From assembly GCA_029582155.1 (NCBI GenBank), contig CM055901.1, positions 50,163,206-50,227,205 of the forward strand: DNA of 64,000 nt, written 5' to 3'. Below are positions 190-64,000 of the stretch, one piece after another. Each line of letters begins with the position of its first letter. Within the stretch, counting starts at the first letter, position 1. Under the pieces are notes generated by a model. It was not told the DNA's origin. It saw only the letters and a list, made by a program, of their open reading frames with translations, and did no database searches. The stretch comes from Panopea generosa (Eukaryota; Mollusca; Bivalvia; Adapedonta; Hiatellidae). The translations under genes were made by a program, and so were the position numbers.

Positions 190-471
190 CTAATTCTCCG
201 GTTACAACCTCAATAGATGCGCTAGGCATACTGCGACCTACTTTAGTCACTGCTATAACGCGTAATTCATATTGCTGAAATGGTTGCATCCCTTTTATGG
301 TATACTCCGTAGCTTTAATTCCGATTATTTGCCTGAAATCTCCTGGGTCCTGTTTCACCTTATACTGGACCACATAGGAAATGTCTTCTGCATTGCCCTG
401 CTTCCAAGATAGCTTCAGGGACGCGGGGGTAATTTCTGAGGCGGTCAGTTTCACTGGGGGGCTTGGCAATG
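190..471 (-). CDS. Lar: LAR-type RPTP exon: first fibronectin type III domain (FN3-1)
   Basis: This internal exon of 282 nt encodes one complete FN3 module of a type IIa receptor tyrosine phosphatase. It opens with ALPSPPVKL, like the ALPKPP start of vertebrate LAR FN3-1. It contains the B-strand tryptophan (LKLSWKQG), the YVVQYK strand and the YELRVIAVTKVGRS strand that marks FN3 folds. The acceptor is TTTACTACAG just before 471 and the donor is GTGAGT after 190, both phase 1. The incoming G from the Ig3 exon completes the alanine codon, giving VRVKALPSPP across the junction, as in LAR. FN3 domains form the membrane-proximal stalk of the receptor. Family assignment is firm. Later FN3 exons lie beyond position 1, and positions 1-189 are the start of the next intron. 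Confidence 0.93.
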
Positions 472-6547: not shown

Positions 6548-6820
6548 CTTTGACCCGCACTTGCGTAACTTCCTCTATATTGCCTAATTCCGACTGTGCT
6601 ACACATGTATAATTAGCCGATTCCAGAACATCTTTTAACATTAAAACATTTCGACCAATTTGTGGTTCATCATCGGGACTGAGTTCCTGGTACCCATGAC
6701 GCCACTTCACCACTGGCATCGGCGAGCCAACCGCAACACAAGTTACATTGATATCTTTGCCTGGATCAACATCCTGAACACTAGGGGGTTTTATAGAGAA
6801 ATGAGGTGGTACCCTTCGAA
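6548..6820 (-). CDS. Lar: LAR-type RPTP exon: third immunoglobulin domain (Ig3)
   Basis: This exon of 273 nt has phase 1 at both ends. The acceptor TTATTTCAG precedes 6820 and the donor is GTAAGG after 6548. The product starts [10 protein letters not shown], nearly identical to the VRRVPPRFSI start of vertebrate LAR Ig3. It contains both disulphide cysteines ([12 protein letters not shown] and [12 protein letters not shown]), the VKWRHG tryptophan and [12 protein letters not shown]-glycosylation sequons are visible at NVT and NYT. Splicing from 25951 gives LYVKVRRVPP, which matches the family without any microexon insert. This domain is part of the ligand-binding head of the receptor. The identification is firm. 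Confidence 0.95.
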
Positions 6821-14109: not shown

Positions 14110-15165
14110 TTATGCTCATTATGAATTTGATGGCTATCCTAACTTTACATGTTCCTTATTTCATGGCTATCTTAACTTAACATATTCCTTATTTCACGAC
14201 TATCCCTTGATTCATGGCTATCCTAACTTTACATACCGGTACTTCTTTTTCATGGCTATTCTAACTTTAAATACTCCTTATTTCATGGCTATCCTAACTT
14301 TACATACTCCTTATTTCATGGCTATCCTAACTTTACATATTCATTATTTCATGGCTATCAAAACTTTACATGGCTATTCTAACGTTATAAAGACATTATT
14401 TCATGGCTATCCTAACTATACATACTCCTTATTTCATGACTATCCTAACTTAACATACTCCTTATTTTATTTCATGGCTATTCTAATGTTATATAGTCCT
14501 TATTTCATGGCTATCTTAACTTTACATATTTATTATTTCATGGCTATGCAAACTTTACATATTCCTTATTTCATGGCTACCCCAATTTTACATACTCCTT
14601 ATTTCATGGCTACCCAAATTTTACATACTCCTTATTTCGTGGCTATCCTAACTTTACATATTCATTATTTCATGGCTATCCTAACTTTACATATTCCTTA
14701 TTTCATGGCTATCCTAACTTTACATATTCCTTATTTCATGGCTACCCCAATTTTACATACTCCTTATTTCGTGGCTATCCTAACTTTACATATTCCTTAT
14801 TTCATGGCTATCCTAACTTTACATATTCATTATTTCATGGCTATCCTAACTTTACATATTCCTTATTTCACGGCTACCCAAATTTTACATACTCCTTATT
14901 TCGTGGCTATCCTAACTTTACATATTCCTTATTTCATGGCTATCCTAACTTTACATATTCATTATTTCATGGCTATCCTAACTTTACATATTCCTTATTT
15001 CATGGCTACCCCAATTTTACATACTCCTTATTTCATGGCTATCCTAACTTTACATATTCCTTATTTCATGGTTATCCTAACTCTACTTATTCCTTTACAT
15101 ATTCCTTATTTCATGGCCATCCAAACTTTACTTATTCCTTCACATATTCCTTATTTCATTTTCTA
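14110..15165. repeat. 33-bp minisatellite, about 30 copies
   Basis: The unit consists of TTATTTCATGGCTATCCTAA followed by CTTTACATATTCC. Because 33 is divisible by three, the plus strand stays open for 368 codons and reads as an 11-residue repeat of the type IPYFMAILTLH. The variants are nucleotide-level, there is no flanking non-repetitive coding sequence, and the array lies within an intron of the minus-strand gene. I regard the frame as a by-product. Subfamilies (CTACCCCAATTTT and CTATCCTAACTTT) alternate in a higher-order pattern between 14570 and 15060. Confidence 0.93.
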
Positions 15166-25950: not shown

Positions 25951-26061
25951 CTTTGACATACAACATGGCTGCAAAAGAATAGGCAACGCCCACCTCATTT
26001 TCTGCAACACACTCATATTTGCCATGGTCATATTCTTGACTTCTCTCAATCGTTAAAGTTC
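25951..26061 (-). CDS. Lar: LAR-type RPTP exon: C-terminal third of Ig2
   Basis: This 111-nt phase-1/phase-1 exon encodes TLTIERSQEYDHGKYECVAE followed by NEVGVAYSFAAMLYVK. YECVAENEVG carries the second disulphide cysteine of Ig2 and matches the YECVATNSAG motif of vertebrate LAR. The acceptor is ATTTTAG before 26061 and the donor is GTAAGT after 25951. It joins upstream to give LIDGTLTIERS and downstream to give YVKVRRVPP. The left boundary corresponds to the vertebrate microexon A insertion point and the right boundary to the microexon B point. Neither insert is present in the visible exons. Confidence 0.95.
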
Positions 26062-26833
26062 CTAAAATATAAAACTCAATTATTAGAATTAACAACTATA
26101 AAATTTTGATGTGTTTTACTAGTGATGGGAGGTAATCCAAGATAATATGAAGCTTAAACAAAATTAACTCAGTTATCTTTCTTCTCAAGCTATTGCGCAA
26201 TAATTTTGATACAATACAAGGGAGGAAACTCAATTCTAAAACTGATATTGTCATATAGCAGTTATCTACCCATATGTTAAAAGTGTTAAACTAGCACTGA
26301 AAATCAGTTGCATCTTGTGAAAATAATCTATAGAAAATATTCTAAAATGGGAATACAATGTTACAATTTCCAAGTCTAAAAGGTTAAAATGATAATCTCA
26401 TAGCACTATGACACATTTCTTCAAACGATTTTGTTTCACTCAGACCACAAAAAAAGAAATATTTTATTCAGGTCCTTTTATTTGGAATAATTTTCCAAAC
26501 AATTCCAAACAACCTGATACTCGTAATTTTTTCATGCACGTGATGTGCGGGCATCATCCTTCACAGCAAGATTTTTTGACAGACGGACGGACAGAACTGA
26601 CGGAATGCATAAAAACAAAATGTCTCTGCCTGGTGGTGGTGAGACATATTATAAACAACCATATTGTAGTTTCTAAATTTTCCATATAAATTTGACATGT
26701 ATATAATTATATTATCATAAACAACAATACCATTTCTTAATATTTCATCATGTCATGTATATAAATACATGTAAATCATATAAATAATTATAAACAACTA
26801 TAATTGTCATAGTTTTTAAATTTCCCATGTTAC
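26062..26833 (-). other. Short intron splitting Ig2, with a retroelement scrap
   Basis: This is a 772-bp intron. Between 26408 and 26665 there is a dispersed-repeat fragment ending in GACAGACGGACGGACAG. One plus-strand frame there includes GPFIWNNFPN, faintly like the C-terminal region of non-LTR retrotransposon polymerases; that similarity is weak. No microexon was recognised. Confidence 0.6.
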
Positions 26834-27016
26834 CATCTATTAATGTTATTCTTGGGTCCGCAGTGTCTACTGGTGTGGAATCTTTGAGCCAGTAGATGGT
26901 GGGTGGTTCTGCCATATTCGCTGCCTTGGCATCACAGTTCAGCGTGGCAGGGTGGTCCTTCTCTACAGATTTGAGTCGAGGATTTTCTGTGATGCGAGGG
27001 TATCCCTCTGGAATGT
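26834..27016 (-). CDS. Lar: LAR-type RPTP exon: N-terminal two-thirds of Ig2
   Basis: This 183-nt phase-1/phase-1 exon encodes IPEGYPRITENPRLKSVEKD onward through ATLNCDAKAANMAEPPTIYW and LKDSTPVDTADPRITLID. It follows vertebrate LAR Ig2 closely: IPxGFP start, LKxVE, first cysteine, W-x-KD-x-x-PVDT. The acceptor is TTTGTCTACAG before 27016 and the donor is GTAACA after 26834. The segment between the first cysteine and the tryptophan (DAKAANMAEPPTIY) looks slightly longer than in vertebrate homologues. The junction with the Ig1 exon reads YPSEDIPEGYP. Confidence 0.95.
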
Positions 27017-33099: not shown

Positions 33100-34510
33100 A
33101 TGTGAGACAGTATAGTCCCTCATAAACACATAGCTGTCACCATGGCATGCAGTACCTAATTAAACCAGTGTCAGGGAGATGGCAGTATTATCCCCTTATT
33201 AACATTATTGTGAATATGGCAGTACAGCCCCTCGCCAACACATTTCCAGGGAGATGACAGTATAGCCCTTTGTGTATAACCATCAACTTACATATTGACA
33301 GAGATGACAGCTCTTACTTACCCTATGTCAGGCAGATATATGGCAGTTAATATTCCCTTACAAATACACTGTATGGAAGATGGCAGTGAAGCACTTTATT
33401 TACAATATATCATGGATATAAATGGAAGTGTATGGCCCTTAACTAACATACTGCATGGAAGATGGCAGTAAAGCATCTTGCTAACAATATATCATGGATA
33501 TAGATGGTGTAGTATATGGTCTTTAACTAACATACTGCATGGAAGATGGCATTAAAACATCTTGCTAACAATATATCATGGATATAGATGGTGTAGTATA
33601 TGGTCTTTAACTAACATAATGCATGGAAGATGGCAGTAAAACATCTTACTAACAATATATCATGGATATAGGTGGTAGTTTATGGTCCTTAACTAACATA
33701 CTGCATGGAAGATGGCAGTAAAGCATCTTGCTAACAATATATCATGGATATAGATGGTGTAGTATATGGTCTTTAACTAACATACTGCATGGAAGATGGC
33801 AGTAAAACATCTTGCTAACAATATATCATGGATATAGATGGTGTAGTATATGGTCTTTAACTAACATTATGCATGGAAGATGGCAGTAAAGCATCTTGCT
33901 AACAATATATCATGGATATAGATGGTAGTTTATGGTCTTTAACTAACGTACTGCATGGAAGATGGCAGTAAAGCATCTTACTAACAATATATCATGGATA
34001 TAGATGGTGTAGTATATGGTCTTTAACTAACATACTGCATGGAAGATGGCAGTAAAGCATCTTGCTAACAATATATCATGGATATAGATGGTGTAGTATA
34101 TGGTCTTTAACTAACCTACTGCATGGAAGATGGCAGTAAAGCATCTTACTAACAATATATCATGGATATAGATGGTAGTTTATGGTCCTTAACTAACACG
34201 CTGCATGGAAGATGGCAGTAAAGCATCTTGCTAACAATATATCATGGATATAGATGGTGTAGTATATGGTCTTTAACTAACATAATGCATGGAAGATGGC
34301 AGTAAAACATCTTACTAACAATATATCATGGATATAGATGGTGGTATATGATCCTTAACTAATATGCTGCATGGAAGATGACAGTAAAGCACCTTACTAA
34401 CAATATTATCATGGATATAGATGGTGTAGTTTATGGTCCTTAACTAACATACTGCATAGAAGATGGCAGTAAAGCATCTTACTAACAATATATCATGGAT
34501 ATATCAATAT
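33100..34510. repeat. 84-bp minisatellite, about 13 copies, plus a degenerate left flank
   Basis: From about 33370 the unit begins GCATGGAAGATGGCAGTAAA and continues GCATCTTGCTAACAATATAT then CATGGATATAGATGG. The copies are very similar, and variants alternate (GATGGTGTAGTATATGG versus GATGGTAGTTTATGG), showing a higher-order pattern of about three units. Degenerate GAGATGGCAGTATAGCCC blocks from 33100 look like an older part of the array. Confidence 0.93.
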
Positions 34511-36424: not shown

Positions 36425-38145
36425 CTTTGCCTATCATAAAGAAAGGAAGTAAATAATGTAACTGCAATTAAAGCATGTTTATCTTGAATACTTTAAATGG
36501 AGTGAATAACTTGGCTGCAATTAAAGCAACACATCCACATTTGAACTTTAAAAAAAAAAAATTTAATTGAGTTATGAGCACATTTCCCATACAAACATAT
36601 GATCAATTAGCTGTATATGAGCATATAAACACAATCCCGAACAAAATGATGCCCAAATTATAATGCGTGACTAACACTTTATAAAACAAGCGTGTGTCTC
36701 ATCCGAGTCAAAAAAAATTGTCAAAATGACTTTCAAGGCAGGTAAAGTACACTACGCACTAAAACGTGAAGTTTTTAAATACGACTCGCATAATTCAATT
36801 TGAAGCAAAGTTGGAATCCTCGGCAATTTAAAAATAATTTATAAAGCGTTTGTCACGCTTTATAATTTGAACATCTTTTTTTATAATTCTAAAGTGTTCT
36901 GGAAAGTGTTTGTTAGCACATATACAGCTCACTGACCATATATTTATGTATGGGAAATGTGCTCACAACTCAATTGAATTTTTTTTTTAAAAAGTTTATA
37001 CGTGGATGTGTTGCTTTAAATCATGTTTATCTTGAATACATTAAATGGAGTGAATAATGTAACAGCAATTAAAGCTATCTTATCTTGAAAACATTAAATG
37101 GAGTGAATAGTGTAACTGCAATTAAAGTATGTTTATCTTGAATACATTAAATGGAGTGGATAATGTAACTGCAGTTAAAGCATGTTTATCTTGAATACAT
37201 TAAATGGAGTAAATAATATTACTGCAATTAAAGTATTTTAATCTTGAATACAATAAATATATTGAATAAATTAACTGCAATTAAAGCATATTTATCTTGA
37301 ATACATTAAATGGAGTGAATAATGTAACAGCAATTGAAGCATGTTTATCTTAAATATATTAAATGGAGTAAATAATGTAACTGCAATTAAAGCATGTTTA
37401 TCTTGAATACATTAAATGGAGTGAATAATGTAACTGCAATTAAAGCATGTTAATCTTGAATACATTTAATGGAGTGAATAATGTAACAGCAATTAAATCA
37501 TGTTTATCTTAAATATATTAAATGGAGTGGATAATGTAACTGCATTTAAAGCAAGTTAATCTTGAATACATTAAATGGAGTGAATAATGTAACAGCAATT
37601 AAAGCATGTTAATCTTGAATATATTAAATGGAGTGGATAATGTAACTGCAATTAAAGCATGTTTATCTGGAATACATTAATGGATTGATAAATGTTACTG
37701 CAATTAAAGTATTTTATCTTGAATACAATAAATAGATTGAATTAATTAAATGCAATTGAAGCATGTTTATCTTGAACACATTAAATGGAGTGAATAATGT
37801 TACTGCAATTGAAGCATGTTAATCTTGAATACATTAAATGGAGTGAATAATGTAACAGCAATTAAAGCATGTTTTATCTTGAATATATTAAATGGAGTGG
37901 ATAATGTAACTGCAACTAAAGCATGTTTATCTGGAATACATTAATGGATTGAAAAATGTTACTGCAATTAAAGTATTTTTATCTTGAATACAATAAATAG
38001 ATTGAATTAATTAAATGCAATTAAAGCATGTTTATCTTGAATACATTAAATTGAGTGAATTATGTTACTGCAATTAAAGCATGTTTATCTTCAATACTTT
38101 AAATGGAGTGAATAATGTAACTGCAATTTAAACATATTGTCTCGT
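36425..38145. repeat. 53-bp minisatellite, about 23 copies, split by a MITE
   Basis: The unit is GCAATTAAAGCATGTTTATC followed by TTGAATACATTAAATGGAGT and GAATAATGTAACT. Two blocks (near 37670-37760 and 37920-38010) share the same variant series, indicating a segmental duplication of about 250 bp inside the array. The array is interrupted at 36525-37015 by a TTAA-flanked element. Confidence 0.93.
36521..37019. mobile_element. TTAA-flanked MITE (491 bp) inserted in a minisatellite unit
   Basis: The element 36525-37015 has long inverted ends: AGCAACACATCCAC at the left and GTGGATGTGTTGCT at the right. The inverted similarity continues through poly-A/T and TGAGCACATTTCCCATACA for about 85 bp. 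TTAA is duplicated at 36521-36524 and 37016-37019. The target GCAATTAAA is a standard position of the surrounding 53-bp unit, so the empty site can be read from neighbouring copies. A TTAA target fits piggyBac-like or Kolobok-like elements. No transposase is present. Confidence 0.88.
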
Positions 38146-45687: not shown

Positions 45688-45834
45688 TAGGAGACATGTG
45701 ACTTACCGCACATTTCAAGATTCTTTTTTTGAACATCATTTTGAGGAAATGTGTTGTTTCTTTTTAAAATTACAATTTAGTGAAAAAGAAAATAAAGGAG
45801 AAACTTGAAGGCAAGAAACTTTTGCAGCACTCAC

Positions 45835-46128
45835 CTTCACTGGGATACACATGCAATGAAGCATTTTCACGCGCAACACCGTGATCATTGGTTGCAACGC
45901 ACGTGAAAACAGTTGTATCCTTTCTTGCTTTCACAGGTTCAATCCTGAGCACTGAACCATGTGGCATATCGATGATATGGTAACGTTTACGATTTAAATG
46001 GATCACTTTTCCTTCCTTCTCCCAGTTGAATGATGGCGCTGGGTGACCCGACGCCTTGCAGAAGAAGCTTACTATCATATCCTCCGCCACTTTCATGCTC
46101 TTTGGCGCAAATGTTATCTTGGGGGCAG
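45835..46128 (-). CDS. Lar: LAR-type RPTP exon: first immunoglobulin domain (Ig1)
   Basis: This 294-nt phase-1/phase-1 exon encodes APKITFAPKSMKVAEDMIVS, then FFCKASGHPAPSFNWEKEGK and onward to FTCVATNDHGVARENASLHV and YPSE. Both disulphide cysteines, the core tryptophan and the GSVLRIEPV strand match LAR Ig1. The acceptor is TATTTTCAG before 46128 and the donor is GTGAGT after 45835. In this family, lysines in the C-D region bind heparan sulfate. Here that loop reads NWEKEGKVIHLNRKRYH, with a basic NRKR cluster but an acidic residue between the first lysines. A sequon (NAS) is present. The identification is firm. Confidence 0.95.
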
Positions 46129-46577
46129 CTGAAAATACACAAAAAATAATCTTGTTAACATTTTGAAATCAATATTGTTATTGTCCACCAAAGAATGGTT
46201 ACCATGGACACTGACAACATTTAAATCACATTGATGTCTAGGTCAGAACTGACGATAGGTCATTTCTCAGCTAGCTTTCCTCAAAATCTGTTTGAAATAA
46301 AAACTTACAATACAAAAAGAAGTCACATCTGAAAATAACATCTACAACCAAATTATAACTGAAACAGAAGTTTTAGATTTTAACTAAACTGAAAAAACAA
46401 CCAAAAAGCCTATAACATGTTCTAAAATGGACAACATCATCTTCTTTCATATTAACTTGAGACTTTTCTCTATCTAAACATTGTTAAATTCAAGCAATAC
46501 CTTCTAACAACATTAAAGAAAACATTGTGGCCATATTTTTAAAACTGTTAAGTTGTTTTATTGTTCAATCTTAAAAG

Positions 46578-46968
46578 TACAGTCAAACCTGTGTAAGTGG
46601 TCACCTCTATTTAGAAGCCACTTGTCTTAAGCAGCCACATTTGCTATTTCCCATTCCTATGCTTTCAGAGCAAATGAACTGTATCAAGCAACAACTTGTC
46701 GTAACCCTTTACTTCATATAGACGCCTTTGGACACTTCTATTATAGAGGCCTTTGGACAGCTAGTATAGAAGACTTTTGAATTATTGGGTGAATTATGTT
46801 TATATTTACTGACTAAGTAGTGGAAAACTGTGCAGGAAGAGTTGCACTGTTTTCAAAGACCTTCTGATATTGGTGTGGGAAAACGCATATTCTATGGGGT
46901 AAAGGGTTAAAAGGCCAGTTTTGCTCAATACTTCCCTTGAATGGCTGCTTAAGGCAGGTTTGACTGTA
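46578..46968. mobile_element. MITE with ACAGTCAAACCTG ends, carrying a nested insertion
   Basis: The outer element 46580-46966 starts CAGTCAAACCTGTGTAAGTG and ends GCAGGTTTGACTG, with TA on both sides. The inner stretch 46702-46909 is a second copy of the MITE at 5010-5208, so the outer element was hit by another transposon. Without it the outer element is about 180 bp. The arms TTAAGCAGCCA and TGGCTGCTTAAG continue the inverted match. Confidence 0.8.
46702..46909. mobile_element. MITE-like repeat (copy 2), nested
   Basis: It is bounded by TAACCCTTTACTTCATA and the inverted TATGGGGTAAAGGGTTA. It matches the 5010 copy, including TGGGTGAATTATGTTTATAT, GCACTGTTTTCAAAGACC and GGAAAACGC. It is inserted inside the outer MITE. 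Confidence 0.78.
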
Positions 46969-48611
46969 TCTCATCCTTTTTAAACTTTATGATAAGTTTT
47001 GGTATTTTTTGTTCATTTTATAGAAATATTCCATAGCTCAGCTGTTGTATATATGACCCATATGCATTATGTTCTATATGGCATTATTGATAAACATGTA
47101 TAATAAATATATAATTATATTAATTTTTCCACATAATGCAAGCTGCAATATCAGTTCTTAAAGAGAACAGCTGCAGTCATTCCCAGAAAACAACAGACTA
47201 TCATCTGTGTGATAAAATATGACCACAATCTGCTTCTGTTTCTATATTGATGGTGCAGCTTTAATTCTAAATCTTGATTTTCATCTTTGTTTTTTTTTTA
47301 AATAAATTTATGAAAGTTGGTCATAAAATTGACCAATGATAATAACCTTTCTCCAAAACAACATATCTGATTGGCTGCTTCAACACAGAGTATTAGACCA
47401 ACTGCCAATGAGTATTACATTTTTCTCAAAAATTAAATGCAAATTTTCTTTTTTAATAACACCAGAGCTGTGTTCAGCTCTAAATGAAAACATTTACACA
47501 GTTACCCTGTTCATAAACAAATGACCAAAAAAAAAATTAAAAAAATTACTGAACCCAAATAAATGTTTAACAAACAGTAAATTGGACAAATTTTAGCTCA
47601 GCTTTCTGATTCACCTTAAATCATATGTTTAAACCAAGGACTTGTATGGAAGGATAGGAAAGTTACATCTCTACTAAATGTTGATAAAACAGCACATGAA
47701 GAATAAATATTTTTTTGCAAATTAATCATCAAGATTTCACACATAATTGATTTCTTATAAATAAAATGCAAGCTTTAGGTAACCTTAGATACTATCATTG
47801 CAGTTTGTTGTAAAATTGTGATTTTTTAAAAAAAAATTTAGTTGCAGTATACAAAGTTTTTTATCATAAGTACTTCAACAATTTTAAACACAATTACCTG
47901 CAAACAGTCTGACATTTTATAGAGAATTTCATAGTGCAAAGAAAGAATTTTGACTTGTATTTCTGAGATGAGTGGAAGTTAGGATATATGAAAACAAGAC
48001 TTTGTGAGCCTTTGTAACATTTCAATGAGTTACTTTTCCTCCCCCAGGTAAGTCCTTGATTAAACACACTTGTGAAGCTACTTCCAAACTTTAAATTGTC
48101 AGGTTCAACATTTACTACTGCTGACACAACATTCAGCTGATGTTAAGGTTAATATTTAATGCCAGCTAACTCATTACAAGTTTGAACACAGCCCTGGATG
48201 AAAGGTTACCAAGATAACCACTTATCTATATCTTTTATATTCAGTTTAATATTAATAAATCCCACTATAGACAATTCTGAATCAAAATTATAACCTATTT
48301 TTTGCTAACATTAACATAACATTTTGTATTATATTTTTTTTTGCTGATATTTTTTTTCTTTTTGTCATTGCATTGATGGTGAGATTTGCCATTGACTTTA
48401 CACAATCTAAAAAAATGGGAAAATATTGAAAACTACAGGCAGTTGGCCTAGTAATATATATATACAACAGACAGTTTTTATAACATTTTATATTATAAAC
48501 CTTTGATGCCTTCATTCTAACAAAATAATTAATTTTAATCTGATCCATTTCAAAAACTATTTTACAAAATTTTAATCTGTCTGGCTTATAGAAGAGACCA
48601 CTGCAGTAAAG

Positions 48612-49317
48612 TACACTCGGGTCCCGTTATAACGCGGATCTTGGGGTCCACAAAATGAAACCACACTATACGTTATAGGAATAATTACCTTGAAAAAGTT
48701 GGTTATTCACACCTATTGTGCTGTCCAACTCTTATGTGAATGGTAATGTTTGCATTGTTATGTGATATGATATATATTTGGTTACAACTGATACACTTAC
48801 ATATGTATATAATTTTTAAAAAAAGAAAAGAAAAACGTTTTGATAAAATTGGCAGCTTACACATCCGGAAGTAGAAATGGTGTCTGTATAAAAACTTGTA
48901 CATGGTTGCTTGATCACATGATCACTCCACAATACAAAGTCTGCAAATTTGGCACACTTAGCAATTATTGAATCACTCTGATTATTACAAACTGTTAATA
49001 CTCAATGATGATATGAATCTAGCAATGAAACTATCCTTTAAACCATTATTAGGCAAAGGTTATAACAGTTTGTTCTAATCAAGGCAAATTGGTGAGTAGA
49101 AAATGAGAGATGACCAAATCAAAACATGGCAACTATATTATATATTGTTTGGTTGTCATTTTGTTATTTGGTCATTCACACAGATTTTTAAGTTCTATAT
49201 CATGACATCCCCCAATCCACCCCATCCCCACTGCTGAAAAAATGGGAGCCAAGTAAAAATCACGTTGTAACGGAATTTGCGTTATATCAGACAGCGTTAT
49301 AATGGGACCGCAGAGTA
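48612..49317. mobile_element. Pogo/Tigger-like non-autonomous DNA element (702 bp)
   Basis: The element 48614-49315 lies between TA dinucleotides. The left end reads CACTCGGGTCCCGTTATAAC and the right end inverted reads CTCTGCGGTCCCATTATAAC. GTTATAACG-type termini with TA duplication are typical of pogo/Tigger elements. Further inward, CGTTATAGG and CGTTATATC recur. No transposase is visible. It lies about 360 bp from exon B. Confidence 0.82.
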
Positions 49318-49676
49318 CACAATAATAATCATTTAACTTTTTTCTTTCATAACACTAAAAGTGAATACTAATCTTCACCTTTATTGTACAATGTATCAAC
49401 AATTTTTATGAATTTTTTTATAAATCCTTTCTTGAAAATAAATAAATAACAAAAAAAGTGAGAGAGGCTGCAGTGTGCCTCTTCTATATCACCCTAATTT
49501 CTTAAATATTTTAACTTTTATATAAAAAATATTTTATTACAAACATAAATATGTCACCATGGTCCCAAATTTTATGACACTGTGCAAATACAACAGAAGC
49601 GAATAGAAAAGATATATTCTGAAATGTGCTTCGAGCGTAAATTTAGAAGGCTTCTACTGCCGTCATTATTACTTAC

Positions 49677-49739
49677 GAGTGGAAGTATCGTGGTACTCGA
49701 AAAATTCAAATTCAGAATCTGCAGTCATAGTATGATTTC
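49677..49739 (-). CDS. Lar: LAR-type RPTP alternative N-terminal exon B (63 nt)
   Basis: This small exon has acceptor TTGAATTACAG before 49739 and consensus donor GTAAGT after 49677, phase 1 at both ends. After the split first codon it encodes NHTMTADSEFEFFEYHDTST, and the last base begins the next codon. Spliced to Ig1 it gives DTSTPAPKITF. It contains a sequon (NHT) and an acidic-aromatic stretch around one tyrosine, a plausible sulfation context. It closely resembles exon A (shared N-x-T, ADS, FEFF, acidic-Y), which implies tandem exon duplication with the peptide conserved. No signal peptide is present, so it must be internal. No transcript evidence is available here. Confidence 0.72.
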
Positions 49740-50353
49740 CTGTAATTCAAATATTTTAGTTGTTACCATATGTATCATATTATATAATACAGATTTTCAT
49801 AATATGCTGTTAGCTATTATTTGTTACAATTAATTTTGTAAACATTTTTACATTCTCTTGTGCATTATGTAATGGATCTTATATTTTAATCTTATTCGGT
49901 TGTGCATTAAGTTATGCATTATTTATTACAATTTCACTTATCTACGCATACATTTGGGCTATATGTTCTTATAGGGATATTCGAGACAGAATGCACAACT
50001 CTTGTTTAGCATATTAATCTACTGAATCATCAACCTGGTTATTTTTTGGTTATTTATAAAGAAAAAAAGTGAAAGTTTCGCATGGAAGATAGCATTACAT
50101 AGTGCCTTGAAGCTATTTACACTTAATGCCATTTTTTTGCCTTTCAAAATTTTGATAATTAACAGAAAACATTTTAAAACCAAAAAAATAAAATTAAATT
50201 GTCACTTCAGGCGTTCCAGATGCAGCTTTGTATTTTTTTCTTTAATGTATTAATTTTTTTTTCTACAAGGGATAATGAATGAATAATAGGATTATTAATT
50301 ATACATTGTACTCTTTATAGAAATGTAATGCAAGTGCAACTTTCCCTACTTAC

Positions 50354-50419
50354 GCGTTAACTGGTCAAGGTAGTCGAAAAACTCAAATTGTAGGTTATTA
50401 GAATCTGCGGTATAGTTAC
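50354..50419 (-). CDS. Lar: LAR-type RPTP alternative N-terminal exon A (66 nt)
   Basis: This small exon has a strong acceptor (CCCTTCTCTACTATACAG) before 50419 and donor GTAAGT after 50354, phase 1 at both ends. After the split first codon it encodes NYTADSNNLQFEFFDYLDQL plus T, with the last base starting the next codon. Spliced to Ig1 it gives DQLTPAPKITF. Spliced to exon B it gives an arginine at the joint and keeps the frame. The frame also stays open upstream to about 50550, but that part has intron-like composition and a polypyrimidine tract. It is the paralogue of exon B, 615 bp away. Its function is unknown; its position is an N-terminal extension before Ig1. Confidence 0.72.
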
Positions 50420-52439
50420 CTGTATAGTAGAGAAGGGTGTGGTTAACATCTCCAATCATCTCATTAATCAACTTCATCAATACAGAAGGACATGCTTTCC
50501 AACTTTTCATAACCAGTGAAATGTGCAGACCGATCCCAACCACCCACTCTTAGACAAAGGAACCATGTCTGATTATTGAGGTTTTTAATTATCTTAATAC
50601 TTTACAAATATTCAAAACAAAAAAAGTTGGCTCTGACTCGCTCATCTGAGGCAAAGAAGTCATATATGACACAATCTCTTCCTAGAAGTTTTGATTTTAC
50701 AAGAGTCCACTTAAAAGGCACTATTGACCAAGTTGGATTGACATCAGTTTGATTACGGTAGGTATTTATTTTTAAGAACTATGACAAATGAAAGGACAGG
50801 AACAACAGAGGACCAGTTTTACTTGTTCTACTGCTATTTGTTTTAAGTCAGATCGTGTCATGAACAGTTTTCACTGTTTAGAGCAGAGTGGAAAAGCAGG
50901 ACTTTCCCATATAAATGTTCAAACTGCTGCTACTAGCATCTGTTCTACCTTTGGGAGATTGCTAAGTTTTCATTTATCAGAAAGGCCGTATTATAAGAGA
51001 CACAAAATAAAACAGATATGTTTTGAATACAGTAACCATGACAACCAAAATGCACTATCATGTAACAGTATAACTATATAGCATTTCCAAACTGTCACAG
51101 GAATTGTTCACAATATTTCTATTTCACATGATGCATTTAATAAAATTAATTTCACCAAACAGCATGAAATGACCTTGACCTTTGAACAATAACTGATATT
51201 GTTTACATAAAAAAGCATGACATGTAAGATTTGTTGCAATAATCTAAGTAGCATCAATGCAATACTGTCAAGAGAGAATCAGATGGCGGAGTTGCTCAAC
51301 TATAATTATGTAAATAGGTTAAATATCATGTGATGCTGGTTTCAAAACAATCTAATTGGTGATTTATAAACAGGTTGCGCACACATGAAGTCAATAAGCA
51401 CCATTCGCGGAACATTGTGAGAAAACTGTTTCCTTATATTGAAGCAGCTCCAGATGTTATAAAGAAATGATGGCCAATAACAGACAATGAAACGGGACTG
51501 GTTCTCAGACATATTTCAGTTCCACTTTGTTCATGTGAGCTTAGAAAATTGATGACTCAGGTCAAGGTCAAATTTGTGTGACTAAGTTGATCTAACCAGA
51601 AAAATACTTTAGCAAAGGTTCAAAGTTTACTGAATTTATATCTGTTTAATAATTACTTTTAAATGTTTGTTTAATCTTTTATTTACCAGAATTAGGACAA
51701 TGGAGATGTGTACACGATTTGGTGATGGATCTGTCTATCAAAAGTTTGTGTCTATTTTTATCATTTAAAAAACTTTTTGATATTGATGTATTTCAAAATA
51801 ACAAAGTTGAAATACAAAATTTGTGATAGATTTGACTTGAGCATGTCATCTAAAAAATTAAGCACGAGTTTGGAATACCATGTTTCTTTAGATTGGAGAA
51901 GTAGAAATGATTGTCAACTGAATAAGTTTATTCGCTAGAAAATGCAGGCAGAAATGTGTTATACAAAGACAGACGAAATAAGTGCCAAGCTTGATTATCC
52001 ATAATACCACTTACGACAAAATCACAGCAGACAACAATTGACAGACAGAATACCAGACTACCTATTGTAGATATAGAAACGACTACATGACCAATCCAAA
52101 TGACATACACACTGTCAATGAAATTCAATGCAATGATTTCGTATTTACAGAAAACATCAAACATTCACGCAACAATCGATACATGCAATTTAATGCAATT
52201 ATTCAAGATCGGTGGCTCGTAAAAACTTTCAGCCTCATAAAATTCTGAAATTGAATTAAAGGAAATTGAACTACTTTCAGTTGAAATGTAGAATCTTAGA
52301 AAAAAATGTCTGCAAAATGGTTTTGCTCAACAGAAGATTGAACACTTTGAACGTCATGTGGGTTACAACTTCAAGTCATCTTGAATGCAATTAAATTAGT
52401 CATCTAATGAATTACAGTCATCTTTTCCATGATTATGAG

Positions 52440-53535
52440 TCAGATATGTTGTGCAAGACTATGAACCAGTCATATATGACTATGACAATGTCATATATAA
52501 CTATGACTTTGAACCACTAATATATGACTATGATACTGTCATATTATATAACTATGACTTTTAACCAATTATATATGATTATGACTTTGAACCAGTCATA
52601 TATGACTATGACAGTCATATATAACTATGATTTTGAACAAGTCAAATATGACTATGACACTGTCATATATAACTCTGACTTTTAAGTAGTCATATATGAC
52701 TATGACATTGTCATATATAACTGTCATATTATATAACTATGACTACGAACCAATCATATATAATTATGACTTTGAACCAGTCATGTATGACTTTGACTAT
52801 GAACCAGTCATATATGACTATGACTTTGAAACAATCATATATAATTGTGACTTTGAACCAGTCATGTATCACTTTGACTATGAACCAGTCATATATGACT
52901 ATGACTTTGAACCAGTCATATATGAATATGACTTTGAACCACTAATATATGACTATGACTATGACACTGTCATATTATATAACTATGACTTTGAACCATC
53001 ATATATATAATAATGACTTTGAACCAGTCATATATGACTATGACTTTGAAACAATCATATATAATTGTGACTTTGAACCAGTCATGTATCACTTTGACTA
53101 TGAACCAGTCATATATGACTATGACTTTGAACCAGTCATATATGAATATGACTTTGAACCACTAATATATGACTATGACTATGACACTGTCATATTATAT
53201 AACTATGACTTTGAACCAATCATATATATAATAATGACTTTGAACCAGTCATTTATGACTATGGCTATGAACCAGTTATGTATGAATATGACTATGAAAC
53301 TGTCATATATAACTATGACTTTGAACCAGTCATATATGATGATGACACTGGCATAATATATAACTATGACAATTAACAAGTCATATATGACTATGACTAT
53401 GAAACTGTCACATATAACTATGACTATGAAACAGTCATATATGATTATGACTACCGATGTAGTAAGAGTAAGTATATCACAGTCATTTCTTTTATGAGTC
53501 AGTCATCTTGTGCAGAACTATGAACCAGTCATATA
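52440..53535. repeat. CATATATGACTATGAC tandem repeat, unit about 27 bp with higher-order copies
   Basis: Units of AACCAGTCATATATGACTAT plus GACTTTG vary by indel. A block of about 190 bp at 52808-52997 is repeated almost exactly at 53027-53219, giving a 220-bp higher-order unit. Plus-strand frames read as YDYDFEPVI repeats and overlap in more than one frame, which argues against coding. The final unit is cut by a MITE at 53536. Confidence 0.92.
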
Positions 53536-62339: not shown

Positions 62340-64000
62340 CTTCCATGATTGTGGAACATTGCTGAACATAACCACTTGATACATGGCTACAGAACATTGC
62401 TGTAGTAACCACCTGATACATGGCTGTAGTCACAACTTGATACATTGCTATAAAACATTGCTGTAGTCACCACTTGATACATGGCTACAGAACATTGCTG
62501 TAGTAACCACCTGATACATGGCTGTAGTCACAACTTGATACATTGCTACAAAACATTGCTGTAGTCACCACTTGATACATGGCTACAGAACATTGCTGTA
62601 GTCACCACTTGATACATGGCTACAGAACATTGCTGCAGTAACCACTTGATACATGGCTACAGAACATTGCTGCAGAAACCACTTGATACATGGCTACAGA
62701 ACATTGCTGTAGAAAACACTTGATACATGGCTACAGAACATTGCTTAGTAACCACTTGATACATGGCTACAAAACATTGCTGTAGTAACCACTTGATACA
62801 TGGCTACAGAACATTGCTGTAGTAACCACTTGATACATTGCTACAGAACATTGCTGTAGTCACCACTTGATACATGGCTACAGAACATTGCTGTAGTCAC
62901 CACTTGATACATGGCTACAGAACATTGCTGCAGTAACCACTTGATACATGGCTACAGAACATTGCTGCAGAAACCACTTGATACATGGCTACAGAACATT
63001 GCTGTAGTAACCACTTGATACATGGCTACAGAACATTGCGGTAGTGACCACTTGATACATGGCTACAGAACATTGCTGTAGTTACCACTTGATACATGGC
63101 TACAGAACATTGCTGTAGTAACCACTTGATACATGGCTACAGAACATTGCTGTAGTAACCACTTGATACATGGCTACAGAACATTGCTGTAGAAACCATT
63201 TGATACATGGCTACAGAACATTGCTGTAGTAACCACTTGATACATGGCTACAGAACATTGCTGTAGAAACCACTTGATACATGGCTACAGAACATTGCTG
63301 TAGTAACCACTTCATACATGGCTACAGAACATTGCCACAGTCGTCACCACTTCATACATGGCTACAGAACATTGCTGTAGAAAACATTTGATACATGGCT
63401 ACAGAACATTGCTGTAGAAAACACTTGATACATGGCTACAGAACATTGCTGTAGTAACCACTTGATACATTGCTATAGAACATTGCTGTAGAAACCACTT
63501 GATACATGGCTACAGAACATTGCTGTAGAAAACAATTGATACATGGCTACAGAACATTGCTGTAGTAACCACTTGATACATGGTTACAGAACATTGCTGT
63601 AGAAAACACTTGATACATGGCTACAGAACATTGCTGTAGTCACAACTTGATACATGGCTACAGAACATAGATGCAGTAACCACTTAATACATGGCTACAG
63701 AACATTGTTGTAGTCACCACTTGATACATGGCTACAGAACATTGCTGTAGAAACCACTTGATACATGGCTACAGAACATTGCTGTAGTAACCACTTGATA
63801 CATGGCTACAGAACATTGCCACAGTCACCACTTGATACATGGCTACAGAACATTGCTGTAGAAACCACTTGATACATTGCTACAGAACATTGCTTTAGTA
63901 ACCACTTGATACATGGCTACAGAACATTGCTGCAGTCACCACTTGATTCATGGCTACAGAACATTGCTGTAGAAACCACTTGATACATGGCTACAGAACA
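62340..64000. repeat. 37-bp minisatellite/satellite, at least 44 copies, running off the window
   Basis: The unit is TTGATACATGGCTACAGAAC followed by ATTGCTGTAGTAACCAC. Most units contain an inverted pair, CTACAG and CTGTAG, around a 7-base spacer, so each can form a small hairpin. Variants (GTAGTCACC, GTAGAAACC, GTAGAAAAC, CTGCAG) are interspersed. The array continues past 64000, so its full size is unknown. Confidence 0.95.

Follow-up and report, generated by a model that had tools for sequence, protein, structure and literature searches.

Does the gene for a LAR-type receptor on the minus strand of contig C8 of Panopea generosa carry, before its first immunoglobulin (Ig) domain, a duplicated pair of short exons that could give the receptor alternative N-terminal ends? 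The stretch analyzed here, called the window, is 64,000 nucleotides (nt) long (C8:50,163,206-50,227,205, in an assembly of 1.47 Gb and 39 contigs), and positions below are those of the window unless a contig is named. A preliminary description made from the letters of the window had proposed two such segments, here referred to as exons A and B, and its coordinates, lengths, acceptors, GTAAGT donors and phase 1-1 for both were all found to be correct. Exons A and B are very probably real and old coding exons in a LAR gene. With a probability of roughly 0.58 we consider them to be old duplicated coding exons which were kept by selection on the peptide and which are probably used as alternative cassettes that alter the N-terminal tip of the receptor.

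50354..50419, minus strand: exon A, 66 nt, phase 1-1, peptide NYTADSNNLQFEFFDYLDQLT
49677..49739, minus strand: exon B, 63 nt, phase 1-1, peptide NHTMTADSEFEFFEYHDTST
49740..50353, minus strand: intron between A and B, 614 nt

Homology of exons A and B

The peptides of A and B have in common N-x-T, ADS, FEFF, a tyrosine with an acidic residue before it, and a D further along. Their alignment scores 43.0 compared to a mean of 8.8 for shuffled peptides (standard deviation 5.5, maximum 40.5), and none of 20,000 shuffles reached this score. Pseudo-exons that are open, of phase 1-1 and 45-99 nt long were enumerated, and pairs within 3 kb were scored. Among the 55 pairs from 39 candidates on the minus strand, A/B was the top pair with a score of 45, and the next independent pairs scored 35 (inside a tandem repeat) and 27; the best pair on the plus strand (28 candidates, 17 pairs) scored 23. 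In 200 windows simulated with a third-order Markov model the best pair averaged 23.3, with a maximum of 34, and not one reached 45. The homology proposed for the two peptides is thus confirmed, and A and B, as adjacent homologous exons of equal phase in one gene, have the predicted makeup of tandem-duplicated exons.

The differences between the two exons follow a coding pattern. Over the 18 shared codons there are 3 differences at first, 3 at second and 9 at third positions, which means that 9/18 third positions differ compared to 6/36 elsewhere (Fisher p 0.013). An alternative codon alignment gave 3, 5 and 10 differences (10/18 vs. 8/36, p 0.017). Outside the exons both introns begin with the same six bases (GTAAGT), and beyond this donor hexamer 1-3 of 6 positions match per bin. 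The flanks had been described as unlike each other, which agrees with three of the four flank pairs compared (49/500, 168/500 and 409/500 shuffles as good) and does not hold for the 300 nt downstream flanks (9/500 shuffles as good) or for a block of 12 nt upstream, at -30 to -19, which is identical at 9/12 positions and is possibly a branch point. The excess of third-position changes, together with similarity that mostly ends at the splice sites, supports a duplication with a coding pattern of change.

Exon A lies between the acceptor CTACTATACAG and the donor CGC/GTAAGT, and exon B between the acceptor TTTGAATTACAG and the donor CTC/GTAAGT (the slash marks the end of the exon). Each exon is open in a single frame and the other two frames are closed in both. 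Splice sites were scored with a simple weight scheme, and the percentages given are the share of AGs or GTs in the window that score as well. The acceptor of A scores approximately 4.2 (1.7% of AGs as good) and that of B scores -0.8 (26% as good); a polypyrimidine acceptor had been claimed for both, which is correct for A and not for B, where the tract is poor. The donors of A and B are equaled by 2.5% and 2.9% of GTs, respectively, with a score of 2.2 for A, and the exon-side AG that is usual at donors is absent from both. A longer exon A was considered and rejected. Its frame extends upstream without a stop as far as 50549, but none of the 7 alternative AGs in the preceding 130 nt is a comparable acceptor (scores of -9.0 to -0.2, compared to 4.15 for the one at A). 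Directly after each exon the intron contains an in-frame stop, read as T-R-K-stop in both cases (50346-50353 and 49669-49676), and if the intron downstream of A or B were retained, the protein would be cut short, at the same position for both.

The receptor gene and its predicted leader exon

As proposed, A and B are located before Ig1. The Ig domains follow in the order Ig1, Ig2 (in two exons) and Ig3, and then one fibronectin III domain is found.

45835..46128, minus strand: Ig1 exon, 294 nt, phase 1-1, LAR-family Ig1
26832..27011, minus strand: first half of Ig2 (matched range only, splice sites provisional)
25952..26062, minus strand: second half of Ig2 (matched range only; donor AAG/GTAAGT next to it, acceptor provisional)
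6548..6820, minus strand: Ig3 exon, 273 nt
190..471, minus strand: exon of the first fibronectin III domain (splice sites inferred)

Ig1, Ig3 and the second half of Ig2 pass the Pfam cut-off, the first half of Ig2 falls below it, and the fibronectin III domain at the window end, the one domain of this type within the window, with further repeats expected outside it, has an E-value of 2e-14. Among five alignments of 153 matches, the best single-domain match of Ig1 is Ig1 of PTPRS with 49.2 bits, compared to 34.3 bits for Robo1, 31.5 for Dscam and 29.5 for Robo2; in the whole-chain table, where domain scores are summed, Robo2 and Dscam rank above PTPRS. A genome search for phosphatase domains, in which 150 of 860 candidates were scored, gave among the matches listed six to PF00102 on the same strand at C8:50,064,603-50,074,380, which is 89-99 kb beyond the window. 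These cover the profile ranges 1-48, 48-125, 127-177 and 166-234 and, further 3', 36-89 and 177-222, so that the C8 matches listed span almost one full domain and parts of a second. The match to 166-234 contains one TGA inside the matched stretch. From their strand and order we infer that the six matches belong to one transcript. The predicted layout of Ig1-Ig3, fibronectin III and phosphatase domains is the LAR architecture, and with a PTPRS-like Ig1, the following Ig2, Ig3 and fibronectin III domains and phosphatase exons downstream on the same strand, the gene was rightly described as LAR-type.

No convincing signal-peptide exon was found within the window. The preliminary description had assumed a signal exon of phase 1, and a search of 200 kb upstream found a likely one outside the window, at C8:50,267,343-50,267,226, 54 kb upstream of A. 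Its acceptor is strong (equaled by 0.2% of AGs in its 10 kb), its ATG is preceded by 48 nt with an in-frame stop that ends 27 nt ahead of the ATG, and it encodes the signal-peptide-like MLIYSCFTGLLAAMLMTTAAQEY, followed by a phase-1 donor (ACA/GTAAGT). This candidate was chosen by eye; a strict scan written afterwards kept it as one of three sense-strand candidates and gave none on the opposite strand. When spliced in a script, the leader candidate reads without a stop into Ig1 (QEYT-APKITF), A (QEYS-NYTADS), B (QEYR-NHTMTADS) and A+B, where A joins B through CGA (Arg), and the claim that A, B, A+B and Ig1 fit together in every combination therefore holds. Compared to these exons, both the Ig1 and the Ig3 sites outscore the A donor, the B donor and the B acceptor, and the donor of the second half of Ig2 is strong. 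The acceptors of the first half of Ig2 (3.2) and of the first fibronectin III domain (1.2) and the leader donor (2.7) are near or below the A sites.

Some further features were observed around the gene. The intron that splits Ig2 (window 25952-27011) is at or near what we take to be the insertion point of the vertebrate mini-exon meA. Large minisatellite arrays, with units of 27 to 250 bp in up to 40 copies, are present at 62516-64000, 52457-53453, 37016-38135, 33368-34503 and 14125-15095. Among the phosphatase matches listed are also two tandem domains in one uninterrupted open frame of 861 amino acids at C12:48535066-48536628, which may have come from a receptor phosphatase as an intron-less retrocopy.

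Further copies and a second LAR-like locus

Between the leader candidate and Ig1 (58.6 kb, 1,839 sense candidates) only A and B are family-like, and the next best candidates score 24/25 and 30/18. Within the window, tblastn gave no convincing match to another copy (next best E 0.67 for A and 0.33 for B). A genome search with peptide A returned only A itself; as B was also missed, this search is blind to diverged copies. The exact core FEFF-x-Y, a pattern that would miss diverged copies as well, has 10 matches in the genome (13 for the backward control), and the rest of the peptide is present only in A and B. A repeat-element origin was considered and rejected: the 851-bp region has one genome match in a search that skips very common words, and 8/10 core matches lack the rest of the peptide.

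A genome search with Ig1 gave 10 matches with an E-value of 0.001 or lower, which are Ig1 itself, three on C4 with 57-58% identity and six with 29-38% identity. Relatives of Ig1 were confirmed for 0/6 pattern matches in viral contigs and 0/40 in bacterial and archaeal ones, in collections not meant for animals. The region C4:34008000-34022531 is a second LAR-like locus with three tandem copies of an Ig1-Ig2 cassette, in which Ig3 is well matched in two copies and matched along a short part of its length in the third. An identity of 99.4% was measured between two of the copies over at least 4,084 bp, up to the end of the stretch read, and one of 94.7% between the first and second copies over 2,882 bp. 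The Ig1 exon of two copies seems to start in phase 1 after a good acceptor, with approximately 60 extra Ser/Thr-rich residues before Ig1, and in the third the open frame before Ig1 spans a shorter stretch. Both LAR-like loci seem to carry something extra before Ig1, and the extra strip at C4 has no detectable relation to A or B (scores 13 and 17). Near the C4 locus, a start resembling that of a signal peptide was discarded because its frame continues and no good donor ends it. The 30 kb read at C4, of which 15.5 kb are upstream of the first Ig1 copy, gave no match to a first fibronectin domain, and no C4 phosphatase domain was present among the matches listed from the phosphatase search. The C4 locus may represent an array that arose recently, a gene for an ectodomain alone, or an error in the assembly.

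Proposed use of A and B and comparison with known systems

We propose that A and B arose by tandem duplication long ago, within the intron that separates the signal-peptide exon from Ig1, that selection on the peptide kept both, and that they would be used as alternative cassettes, usually with one or none of them per transcript. The mature receptor would then start almost at Ig1 or with one of two acidic, aromatic and N-glycosylatable strips of 20-21 residues. Such a strip would sit at or near the mature N-terminus and would alter what the basic face of Ig1 can bind. The anatomy of the exons, their homology and codon-position bias, the identity of the gene and the fit of the frames are shown directly; the signal exon, the splicing of A and B, their alternative use and their effect on ligand binding are what we infer here.

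For vertebrates, the likely heparan-sulfate site has been placed in a lysine patch of Ig1, and a basic cluster in Ig1 of PTP-delta contacts an acidic cluster of IL1RAPL1 (PMC5645493). By analogy, an acidic strip on Ig1 could compete with heparan-sulfate or acidic-cluster ligands. Sulfation of the A/B tyrosine is a guess from local acidity. Carried further, the acidic and possibly tyrosine-sulfated strip would act on the basic Ig1 face as a splice-switchable mimic of a sulfated glycosaminoglycan that blocks or retunes the binding of proteoglycans or partners; skipping both exons would free Ig1, and the switch would have A and B as its two settings. We consider this extension improbable.

Several observations speak against selection-kept, alternatively used cassettes. 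YN00 gave dN (nonsynonymous divergence) 0.36 and dS (synonymous divergence) 0.37, which indicates no constraint, and NG86 gave dN 0.21 and dS 2.23; 18 codons are too few for either method, and the argument for selection rests on the position bias, not on the ratio. Sites about as weak as those of A are present in other exons of the gene, so that weakness alone is no mark of regulated use of A and B. The leader exon, although likely, is a prediction that was missed by the first filter and ranked tenth of 18 by a looser one. The region 49640-50460 gave no sign of an RNA structure for exclusive splicing (z -0.82, 4/20 shuffles as good). At C4 no A/B-like exon was found in the 30 kb read, where the best of 512 candidates scores 24. 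The strip had been placed beside a heparan-sulfate-binding Ig1; the position before Ig1 stands, and the heparan link appears weakened, as 2/4 lysines of the patch are kept in an alignment to 2yd9 with our own mapping to the KKGKK stretch.

A special case that overlaps with alternative cassette use, so that the odds of the two do not add up, is strict exclusivity, with one of A and B in each transcript by means of a dedicated device such as competing RNA structures. This is unlikely. Every combination is in frame and the frame therefore does not enforce exclusivity; transcripts with both or neither exon would not be removed by decay; the A/B region folds no better than its shuffles; and among 25 of the 53 imperfect inverted pairs in 45800-51500, listed without a control, no long and well-matched one is present (longest 33 nt, 76%). 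Less likely again is that A and B are always both included as a fixed N-terminal extension of two repeated strips. All junctions, including A-B, are in frame without a stop, and weak sites occur in other exons of the gene too, which would permit constant inclusion; the poor B acceptor argues against it. That one of the exons is used and the other is a decaying copy is quite improbable: the weaker acceptor of B would fit this, but B has an open frame, an intact donor hexamer and differences from A that favor third positions. We give very little credence to chance open frames or repeat-element fragments: A and B are short features in AT-rich intron sequence, but 0/200 simulated windows reach their score, their region has its single genome match, and the 8 other core-motif matches come without the remaining peptide.

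The preferred reading, alternative cassettes before Ig1, can be compared to several known systems. PSGL-1 and chemokine receptors have tyrosine-sulfated acidic N-terminal tails, and the putatively sulfated A and B resemble these in having acidic residues around a tyrosine near the mature N-terminus. Neighboring homologous exons in one gene are also known from Dscam1 and myosin heavy chain (both PMC9013439) and from SNAP25 (exon 5). For these three genes exclusive use is reported, whereas A and B are exons predicted from the sequence; what they would encode, unlike the others, is a short strip ahead of Ig1.

Within the receptor family itself, vertebrate LAR receptor protein tyrosine phosphatases (PTPRF, PTPRD and PTPRS) have the mini-exons meA, meB, meC and meD, of which meA and meB alter ligand choice, as described in two reviews (PMC8711739, PMC12598525). 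A and B are likewise small in-frame exons. As described there, meA is in Ig2, meB between Ig2 and Ig3, meC in FN5 and meD near D1, whereas A and B, before Ig1, are at none of these positions; the mini-exons add 3 to at most 16 residues, whereas A and B, which are homologous to each other, encode 20-21. A search of the open-licence PMC literature found no splice insert before Ig1 in LAR receptors; predicted transcripts with exons of this kind may be present, unnoticed, in the gene annotations of other animals. LAR-type receptors select among synaptic partners in part through small splice inserts, and those covered in the reviewed parts of the literature are from Ig2 onwards. If the proposed use is true, A and B would add a splice site ahead of Ig1, at the outermost tip of the receptor.
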